A DNA stretch of 64,000 nt, taken from contig JANXET010000004.1 in the NCBI GenBank assembly GCA_025058315.1, positions 1-64,000 on the forward strand, in the 5' to 3' direction. The stretch's first letter is position 1; every line of letters starts with the position of its first letter. Of this stretch, positions 2,970 to 21,964 are shown one piece after another. The stretch is from Candidatus Bathyarchaeota archaeon (GTDB lineage Archaea; Thermoproteota; Bathyarchaeia; Bathyarchaeales; Bathycorpusculaceae). Under the pieces are notes generated by a model. The model made no database searches and was not told where the DNA came from. It saw only the letters and a program-made list of their open reading frames with translations. The position numbers and the translations under genes are program-made.

Positions 2970-2981
2970 AACTTAAAAGTT
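2970..2981 (-). promoter_or_regulatory. TATA box for tyrS
   Basis: On the minus strand the element reads AACTTTTAAGTT and lies about 50 bases before the tyrS ATG. That predicts transcription start near 2948 and a short leader. The element is nearly palindromic and could also fire on the plus strand toward the structured RNA region. Direction is inferred from the downstream gene. Confidence 0.5.
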
Positions 2982-2986
2982 GTTTC

Positions 2987-3240
2987 GCGGGCGCCATTGT
3001 CTCCCACGTAACCTATCACTTAACTTCATCGCGGAGCCATGCGCTCCCCTAGGTTAAGCTCTCTCCGGCGTGGGACATTAGCGCCCGCGCCCGCCGTGTC
3101 CCATGCTTGGGTAAACCCTTCCTCACCGCGGCAAGCCTGCGCTTACCACTCTGTTGGGTCCGTCAGCATGGATTTGCCGGCGGGATTAGATGGCTCAGAA
3201 GCGGGTCATTGCCGGATAGTCTATCTAGATGCGGCAAATT
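2987..3240 (-). ncRNA. Candidate structured noncoding RNA between pheT and tyrS
   Basis: This GC-rich gap has no credible protein. Two long imperfect hairpins stand side by side: arms 2987-3008 with 3069-3088 (8 bp base, internal loop, 6-7 bp), and arms 3090-3107 with 3165-3184 (7 bp base, internal loop, 7-8 bp). A smaller hairpin, 3130-3135 with 3142-3147, sits inside the second. In each of the three, a mismatch that would be C-A on the plus strand becomes a G-U wobble on the minus strand, so the RNA probably runs on the minus strand. An ACA lies 3 bases past the base of the last hairpin and a UGA/GA pair near its tip could form a K-turn, so an H/ACA-type guide is possible. I do not see SRP helix 8 or RNase P signatures. 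The 5' end near 3240 is a guess. Confidence 0.5.
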
Positions 3241-3253
3241 AAACATTGCTGTT

Positions 3254-4924
3254 CTATTGGGATTTTATCCTTATCAGCGGCTCCAGATCTATTTCGAAAG
3301 CTGCTGCAGGGTTCTCTATTTGGAAATTATTTAGAACCTGCGGGTTTATCTCGCCGATTATGCCTATTGGCCTATTTCTGTAGGCTATGGTGGAGGTTCT
3401 GCCGCTTAAGAAGCTTGGATGCTTCGCCTCCCTAACATGCCAGCCCTCAACGCTTAGATTAGCCAGGAGGGCTTCACAGTAAGCTTTTACCTCCGTATAG
3501 TTTGCTGTGGAGTGGCAGGTAACTGCCGCCACATGCAGCCGCCTTTCCACCATGGTTTCTAATCGCCTATTTATTCTGGCTACGTCTGAAACCTCGAATA
3601 TGCGTTGCGGGTAGCTTTCATGTTTGTTCTCAGCCAGGTTCCTCATCAAACATGGAAGCAGCGTCTGCCTAACTATTGTGTACTCCAGCGATACTGGGTT
3701 GGCGATCCTCACAGGGTTTTTAGGTTTAACCAGCATGTAATCATAGTGGATGCGTTCGTTTGTGAGGGTGAAGTTCATCACTTCCATAAAGCCAAGACCA
3801 ATCATTAGTTGGCGCACCTTATCCGCGAACGCGTACACCGGATGCTTTTCGCCGACTGTTACAGCCTTAGGCATTGTGGGTTCAAGCCTATAGTAGCCAT
3901 AGCCTATGGCCACTTCCTCTACAAGGTCTATCTCATGGAGTATGTCGATGCGGTACGGCGGGATTGAAGCTTCCAGCAGGCCATTGCCTATTTTCTCTGC
4001 GCCCAGCCTGCATTTCATCAAGCATCTAGCGGCCTCATCATCATTAAGCCTTAAACCTAGAAGCCTATTGGCGTACTTAACCCGGAGCCTCATTCTCTCA
4101 GGTTCAAGGCTTGGGGAGGTCACCGTTCGATCAGGGTACTTTACAATGACCTTTTCCAGGGTTCCACCCATATCCGCCAGTGCGGTGGCCAAAACCTTAA
4201 GGCTTTTCTCGACAGCATCATAGCTTGGACCTGTGATGTCCAGAAACAGGTTTCTAGTGTCAGCTGTGACTCTGGTGAGTTCCCCGTTTATTATCGGCGG
4301 CATTGAAAGCACTTGGCCGTCCCTGTCTACAAGTAACGGGTATCTGGGCGCCCAGTCCACAAGATGCCTGTAGGCTACGCCTTTCTCGTGCTTCTCAAGG
4401 ATTTCCTTAGGCGTCATTTCCTCAGTCTTGCCGAGCGGCACGAACTTCACGCTTTCCGGCTTGACTGCCGTGTAGGTGAAGGGCGGGTTTATAACGTCCA
4501 GGTTGTGAATGCCTATGGAAGCCTTTTTCCGGTCTCTACCTATGCCCCAGTGAAGGTCCTCCTGCATCTCCATAAGCTCCGCGACAGCCTCATCGTCAAG
4601 CCTTATGTCTCGCACAATAGCTGCAAGCATGAATGGCCTAACATCAGCCACGGCCTTATCAATCGTCAACGTGGCTTTAGGCTCCTTAGCCTCATATTTT
4701 GGAAGCCCAACTTCCCATTCTGTGAAGCCCTTGTAGGCTCGGGCTACTCCAGCGTAGCTGCACAGGTCTATTCGGTTGGGGTTAAACTCCACCTTGAGGT
4801 AGTCTTCGCCGCGTTCCTCAATGTCGAATCCTATCCATGGCAGGGTCTTAGCCATATCCTCAACGGTTACGTCTCTGCCTAGAAACTTTGAGAAGCGCTC
4901 TCTATACAGTGTTATCACTGGCAT
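3254..4924 (-). CDS. pheT: Phenylalanine--tRNA ligase beta subunit
   Basis: The 556-residue protein matches the shorter archaeal/eukaryotic PheRS beta chain. The start [16 protein letters not shown], the segment [18 protein letters not shown] near 45-62 (B1-type domain) and the late [17 protein letters not shown] and [11 protein letters not shown] regions (B5 and catalytic-like core) are family hallmarks. With PheS it forms the alpha2-beta2 enzyme that charges tRNA-Phe; the beta chain contributes tRNA recognition and editing. The start overlaps the end of pheS by 10 bases, so the two are translated as a coupled pair. Confidence 0.96.
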
Positions 4925-15498: not shown

Positions 15499-15570
15499 AG
15501 ATGAGGTAGCGCCCTAAATTTCAAGACCAAGTTTGGATCGTCGGCTGGCTCTTCAGAATTGAAGCGGGGC

Positions 15571-15685
15571 TGCCGGCTTTCCCGGGTTCACGTGGCCGAA
15601 GACCACACTACTGCCGGGAACGGAGCGCGGTTTAACTTCCGAGTTCGGAATGGGATCGGGTGGGTCCCGCGCCCTATGGCCGGCA
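15571..15685 (-). rRNA. rrf: 5S ribosomal RNA
   Basis: On the minus strand the region reads as an archaeal 5S rRNA. The terminal helix is formed by TGCCGGC at both ends (15679-15685 with 15571-15577). The conserved loop CCGAACUCGGAAGUUAA follows the helix III loop, read from about 15650 down to 15631. The length of about 115 bases is right. It is not next to 16S or 23S genes, which is common in TACK archaea. Ends may be off by a few bases. Confidence 0.93.
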
Positions 15686-15787
15686 AACCCCATGATACAC
15701 GTTAAAGAATCCCTCATTAACTTTTCGCTTCAGGCCTGCATAAGTCTCCCTGCATCATCCTTTCAGACTTTTCAGCATTATCCCTCA

Positions 15788-21789: not shown

Positions 21790-21964
21790 GGGGCCGTAGT
21801 CTAGCACGGTATGACGACGGGCTCCAGAACGCAAACACACGGGTTTGCGGACCGCGAAGGCCGGGATGAAGAAGTTCTGGAGCGGTCCTAGAGAAACCCG
21901 TAGGAGCAGCAAACACGCTGGCTCCGGGGAAAGGTCGTCGGTTCAAATCCGGCCGGCCCCACCA
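21790..21964 (+). tRNA. tRNA-Trp (CCA) with two introns
   Basis: Acceptor arms GGGGCCG (21790-21796) and CGGCCCC (21954-21960), a D arm closed by GUC/GAC, and a T arm GUCGG-UUCAAAU-CCGGC (21937-21953) frame an anticodon stem ACGGG/CCCGU. That stem's 3' strand is displaced to 21897-21901. The anticodon CCA is at 21824-21826. An intron of about 65 bases follows the anticodon (about 21829 to 21893-21895, the canonical 37/38 site). A second of about 30 bases, with a GGAGC/GCUCC hairpin (21903-21907 with 21921-21925), interrupts the variable arm. Removing both leaves about 76 bases. CCA 21962-21964 is encoded. Exact splice points are estimates. Confidence 0.88.

Follow-up and report, generated by a model that had tools for sequence, protein, structure and literature searches.

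A probable stand-alone double H/ACA guide RNA between pheT and tyrS of Bathyarchaeia with arms predicted for two functional sites of 23S rRNA

In order to deduce what type of RNA is encoded between the synthetase genes pheT and tyrS of a Candidatus Bathyarchaeota archaeon, we analyzed the first 64,000 nucleotides (nt) of contig JANXET010000004.1 (assembly GCA_025058315.1), here called the window. An initial annotation, made from the sequence alone, had described a GC-rich structured RNA at positions 2987-3240 and had left three options, namely an H/ACA guide, a divergent house-keeping RNA or a leader element upstream of tyrS. Our data suggest with good confidence that the interval encodes a stand-alone archaeal double H/ACA guide RNA, the arms of which are predicted for two functional sites of the 23S ribosomal RNA (rRNA). 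The guide option is favoured because ANA boxes and kink-turn-like motifs are present, the spacings of GA stem and box fit in part and the arms are complementary to known pseudouridine regions, whereas the house-keeping option had to be dropped and the leader option holds in part only. The RNA as modelled comprises 232 nt at 2983-3214 on the minus strand, with putative ends placed by the full-length match of the covariance model R1 and by covariation. The model covers most of the interval suggested before, while the remainder up to 3240 extends into a TATA-like upstream element.

The strand had been suggested by C-A mismatches of the plus strand that become G-U pairs on the minus strand, and this suggestion agrees with the further analysis. 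The minus strand folds with -115 kcal/mol (z = -4.2; 0/200 dinucleotide shuffles as good) and the plus strand with -105.5 kcal/mol (z = -2.8 against dinucleotide shuffles). Since the minus strand gives the better fold, in agreement with gene order and homologues, the RNA was assigned to this strand, on which all of its parts given below are located. The two long hairpins of common design that had been noticed before are present, and on either strand their fold surpasses that of dinucleotide shuffles. Compensatory changes among relatives, which had been named as a check of the structure, were found far above the controls. For this purpose 50 Bathyarchaeia sequences and 49 pairs were compared with 500 shuffles: standard pairing occurred in 90.7% of the paired cells, both sides had changed in 29 of the 49 pairs (17.8 expected), and the covariation score was 0.252 versus 0.150, whereby none of the 500 shuffles reached any of these measures. 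Thus, the structure is not due to chance, because double changes and covariation score exceed those of all shuffles. When the partner was shifted by one base, pairing fell to 42-45%. The RNA is organized as a 5' mini kink-turn, followed by the outer clamp P1 (3178-3184 with 3090-3096; delimited in the covariation set) around hairpin I and the outer clamp P4 (3081-3089 with 2986-2994) around hairpin II, the 3' strand of P1 being directly next to the 5' strand of P4. For hairpin II, the phylum-wide set yields 211 double-change cells versus 69 expected. Double changes were also observed in 7/7 pairs of P4, and P1 is paired in 100% of the cells with double changes in two of six pairs. The phylum model of hairpin II (R3) is a hand structure, as the RNAalifold structure of the distant set (model R2) was too sparse.

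Archaeal H/ACA units have a basal stem of 7-9 base pairs (bp), and their pocket-closing pair is separated by 14-16 nt from the ANA box and by about ten stacked layers from the G-A pair of the kink-turn (PMC4652768). Both hairpins contain an internal-loop pocket between a covarying basal stem of 7 bp and a GA stem, and in both the basal stem is directly followed by an ANA box, which is ACA in hairpin I and either ACA or AUA in hairpin II. The GACA that had been reported on the 3' side of the internal loop in both hairpins turned out to be the minus-strand ACA box of each unit, following the inner basal stem (3099-3097 and 3000-2998). Hairpin I (3097-3172) consists of the basal stem UCCAUGC/GCAUGGG, the pocket, the GA stem GACCC/GGGUU, a kink-turn at 3119-3155 (C-stem GUGGUAAGC/GCUUGCCGC, bulge GGU, tandem GA/GA) and the ACA box at 3097-3099. 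This box lies 13 nt after the start of the motif ACCCA, a spacing that is kept in 48/48 and in 21/24 rows. In the window, 14 nt (UACCCAAGCAUGGG) separate the pocket-closing pair of hairpin I from ACA, GACCC/GGGUU together with AACA in front of the G-A pair yields ten layers, and the 3-nt bulge ends in U. A strict kink-turn test, demanding the 3-nt bulge and the C-stem, was passed by 35 of the 48 rows of the Bathyarchaeia set A1. Hairpin II (2998-3075) is built from the basal stem UCCCACG/CGUGGGA, the pocket, the GA stem GCUUAAC/GUUAAGU, a kink-turn-like motif that fits in part, with a variable second G-A pair, and the ACA box at 2998-3000. Its distance from closing pair to ANA box amounts to 14 nt in a Methanomethylicota relative. 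The 5' mini kink-turn or K-loop (3192-3213; GGC-AAU-GA-loop-GA-GCC, consensus GCGAUGA...GAGC) was deduced from the alignments, in which its helix is 67.7% paired, and is a predicted L7Ae binding site.

In order to find out which RNA the pockets might address, the arms were compared with rRNA sequences. No 23S match was found in the assembly of the window, and the comparison was made with genomes G005 and G044 of the same family. In hairpin I, conservation is highest in GACGG of the 5' guide arm (3160-3164) and ACCCA of the 3' guide arm (3108-3112), which are together the exact complement of 23S UGGGU-[UUAGA]-CCGUC (5+5 bp). By our numbering, the arms would pair with E. coli 2590-2594 (CCGUC) and 2580-2584 (UGGGU), and the pocket would presumably hold U2585 and U2586. 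Of 16 large-subunit sequences, 15 contain the bipartite site (ten families); the match in the 16th is incomplete. The gap reads UUAGA in 14 of the 15 testable 23S sequences and UUAGU in the 15th. One of the genomes, G088, has its 23S rRNA matches in separate pieces, one of them approximately 1.2 Mb from the others (L098, L099; G088:C1), which is possibly a fragmented rRNA or an assembly problem. A 16S site for hairpin I, GGUGAA-UA-CGUC, was rejected as weaker; it does not account for the end of ACCCA or for the terminal G of GACGG.

The arms of hairpin II point to helix 69 of the 23S rRNA. The 5' guide arm GAGAGAG (3059-3065) is complementary to CUCUCUU/C (E. coli 1920-1926), and the 3' guide arm (3013-3017), which reads GAUAG in the window and GUUAG or GUCAG elsewhere, is complementary to CUGAC with one A-A mismatch in the window. 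GAGAGAG together with GUUA(G) can pair with GUAAC-[UCUGA]-CUCUCUU by up to 7+4 bp, whereby the gap holds U1915 and U1917. In a second register, CUGAC-[UC]-UCUU, the gap has the canonical 2 nt and points at U1921; this register also accounts for the GUCAG arms of the Ignicoccus, Aeropyrum and Nitrosopumilaceae types. Which uridine each pocket would modify is ambiguous between the registers.

Homologues of the RNA are widespread. By blastn with a 281-nt query, 86 of 101 relatives gave a match, including 60 of the 66 good genomes. The covariance model R1 of the minus-strand RNA matched 216 of the 257 class genomes, including 115 of the 120 good ones. In a sample of 398 genomes from the phylum, R1 matched 119 and the hairpin II model R3 matched 164. 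A pattern scan of named genomes gave matches in Bathyarchaeota, Bathycorpusculum, Hecatellales, Methanomethylicota, Pyrodictiaceae and Desulfurococcales. One genome with the RNA is presumably Cenarchaeum symbiosum (Nitrosopumilaceae), and three others, which we take to be Aeropyrum pernix, Staphylothermus marinus and Ignicoccus hospitalis, yielded only hairpin II. Some genomes have a second copy of the RNA, i.e., L028 and L034 in G033, L071 in G043, L052 and L057 in G090, and L085 and L092 in G095, a few of these matches being hairpin II alone. No description of the RNA family was found in the open-access literature searched, which leaves out most subscription journals.

Several observations weigh against a guide function at the two 23S sites. 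In the best register, the gap over each pocket is 5 nt versus the usual 2. For hairpin I there is an alternative 23S site with a 2-nt gap, GGGUAAG-[UU]-CCG (7+3 bp), which we keep as an alternative, although it appears less consistent with the invariant letters than UGGGU-UUAGA-CCGUC and is mismatched in the Nitrosopumilaceae-type RNAs. The arm GAUAG in the family of the window has one A-A mismatch and GAUCG in family f46 has two while the rRNA is unchanged, and the hairpin II arms of the Nitrosopumilaceae type diverge. With respect to anatomy, hairpin II of the window has 17 nt between pocket and box, exceeding 14-16 nt, and in the distant set the strict kink-turn test was passed by only 8 of 25 rows. 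In 20 hairpin II loci no hairpin I was present within 450 nt upstream, and hairpin I of Methanomethylicota (L148, L151, L159, L171) is strongly divergent. At these four loci it reads UAACCCA ... GCAACA, approximately 100 nt upstream of hairpin II and without GACGG.

How readily such matches arise by chance was estimated with random arms. In E. coli numbering, the pseudouridines 1956, 1958 and 2621 of haloarchaea are 1915, 1917 and 2586, respectively (PMC2584109). Random arms of the lengths of hairpin I meet a known archaeal pseudouridine gap with a probability of 7e-5 and those of hairpin II with 9e-5, whereby these figures are optimistic since the arms were chosen from the alignment. Any match of random arms in 16S and 23S has a probability of approximately 3% per hairpin. 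If wobble pairs are allowed in searches with a single hairpin, approximately 20% of the shuffles do as well, which is not significant alone. The target argument thus builds on the Watson-Crick matches, on the combination of the two hairpins and on modification sites that are already known.

The location of the RNA suggests a different function, i.e., a cis-regulatory leader of tyrS that acts as a riboswitch or attenuator and senses an amino acid or a transfer RNA (tRNA). The RNA lies between tyrS (1839-2921, downstream) and pheT (3254-4924, upstream), both on the minus strand. Among 91 loci in which tyrS was found, 88 have it downstream on the strand of the RNA, and the distance from the RNA to the tyrS start is only approximately 20 nt in Methanomethylicota. 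Likewise, 80 loci have pheT upstream on the strand of the RNA, three further loci with pheT overlap the search margin, and pheT was never found on the opposite strand. The order pheT - RNA - tyrS is kept across much of the phylum (loci L143-L202 and L291-L310), which is unusual for a guide RNA gene. However, several loci keep the RNA without tyrS downstream, among them the examined Nitrosopumilaceae-type loci, where pheT is kept and a gene other than tyrS follows the RNA; therefore, the position upstream of tyrS noted by the initial annotation stands, but the RNA is not an obligate tyrS leader. Moreover, a second TATA-like element separates the RNA and tyrS in the family of the window. In the window this is CTTTTAAG (2972-2979, minus strand), the probable TATA box of tyrS, which most loci of family f1 have and several loci without tyrS downstream lack. 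The RNA itself is preceded by the TATA-like element AATGTTTAATT (3237-3247, minus strand), approximately 25-30 nt 5' of it and conserved in the alignment of relatives, which is probably its own promoter. As, in addition, the most conserved letters of the RNA correspond to rRNA and to the H/ACA boxes, we regard a tyrS leader as improbable.

It could also be that the RNA is related to H/ACA RNAs and does not guide rRNA modification but acts, for instance, as a ribosome assembly factor or an RNA chaperone, its arms binding a protein or folding on themselves. A stack of non-canonical pairs between GAGAGAG and GUGUUAG could span the pocket, and both the 5-nt gap and the breaks of complementarity in lineages with constant rRNA would fit such a function. 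Against this speaks that the invariant arms of both hairpins fit two known archaeal pseudouridine regions, and this in the order of HP1 and HP2 from Haloferax, so that we give this explanation little credence. A divergent signal recognition particle (SRP) RNA, RNase P RNA or other Rfam family, as suggested by the house-keeping option and compatible with size and GC content, is practically excluded, because the SRP and RNase P genes were detected above the Rfam cut-off on other contigs of the same genome and Rfam returned nothing relevant at gathering or permissive thresholds, with no matching family at the locus or in 18 tested distant loci.

For a double H/ACA guide RNA, the following mode of action can be suggested. 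Archaeal H/ACA guides work together with Cbf5, Nop10, Gar1 and L7Ae, and their arms pair with the target around the uridine and one further unpaired base. L7Ae would bind each hairpin at the kink-turn and Cbf5, the gene of which is present in the genome, would bind at the ANA box. The arms of hairpin I would hold the rRNA at UGGGU-[UUAGA]-CCGUC and expose U2585/U2586 of the peptidyl-transferase center, whereas those of hairpin II would hold helix 69 and expose either U1915/U1917 (UAAC-[UCUGA]-CUCUCUU) or U1921 (CUGAC-[UC]-UCUU), whereupon the exposed uridine would become pseudouridine by the action of Cbf5. The outer clamp helices would close each unit beyond its ANA box. Such clamps and a 5' kink-turn are unusual for an H/ACA RNA, and while the H/ACA class is known, the RNA family and the covarying clamps around the ANA boxes are not in Rfam. 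It is conceivable, if rather doubtful at present, that the RNA represents a "clamped" H/ACA class, in which an extra helix seals each unit including the ANA box, a 5' kink-turn precedes, each pocket takes a 5-nt rRNA loop and a single pocket might act on more than one uridine (both 1915 and 1917, or both 2585 and 2586). If so, rRNA modification and synthetase expression could be linked through the conserved placement of the RNA between pheT and tyrS. The structure also raises the question of how an ANA box that is enclosed by a helix is recognized.

Some further features were observed. The Cbf5 match (L288, G000:C52:16586-17557) contains one in-frame TAG, which may represent the stop at the end of the gene, a frameshift or a TAG decoded as an amino acid. 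The window harbors a 5S rRNA gene (15568-15687, minus strand) that is unlinked to the 16S gene, the latter being located on another contig. At 21790-21961 (plus strand) there is a tRNA gene with a long insertion, which gives 40.7 bits over 172 nt with the Rfam tRNA model, was missed by ARAGORN and probably contains an intron.

Thermoproteota are mostly uncultured and few data on their rRNA modifications exist. The analysis offers a likely function for an RNA that occurs in nearly all good Bathyarchaeia genomes examined and in much of Thermoproteota but is absent from Rfam. It suggests that guided pseudouridylation of the peptidyl-transferase center and of helix 69, as proposed in Haloferax and Pyrococcus, may take place in Thermoproteota, too, and it names exact nucleotides for testing in cultured carriers. 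A close likeness exists to HP1 and HP2 of Haloferax volcanii, which were proposed to guide 2621 and 1956/1958, respectively (PMC2584109). Like the RNA described here, they comprise two H/ACA hairpins for the 2586 and the 1915/1917 regions in the same order; unlike in HP1/HP2, the hairpins adjoin here, are closed by outer clamps and are preceded by a 5' kink-turn, the likeness being one of target and order. For Pab40 of Pyrococcus and Afu-4 of Archaeoglobus, the U1915 equivalent in helix 69 was reported as target in vitro in earlier work (PMC2584109). Pf7/Pab40 and Afu-4 share with our RNA the H/ACA guide hairpins and, for Pab40 and Afu-4, the target helix 69. Pf7 has three hairpins versus two in our RNA, and we know of no clamp enclosing the ANA boxes of Pf7, Pab40 or Afu-4. 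The H/ACA-like sRNAs sR201-sR210 of Pyrobaculum are crenarchaeal guides with K-turn, GA stem and ANA box (PMC4652768). GA stem and ANA box are shared with our RNA and the K-turn in part; however, most of sR201-sR210 are without a lower stem, whereas the RNA described here has a lower stem and a further outer stem. In yeast helix 69, pseudouridines 2258 and 2260 (snR191), 2264 (snR3) and 2266 (snR84) derive from H/ACA guides (PMC8307265), of which 2264 is, by spacing arithmetic, the equivalent of E. coli 1921. We conclude that the RNA would be the functional Thermoproteota counterpart of HP1/HP2 and Pf7/Pab40.
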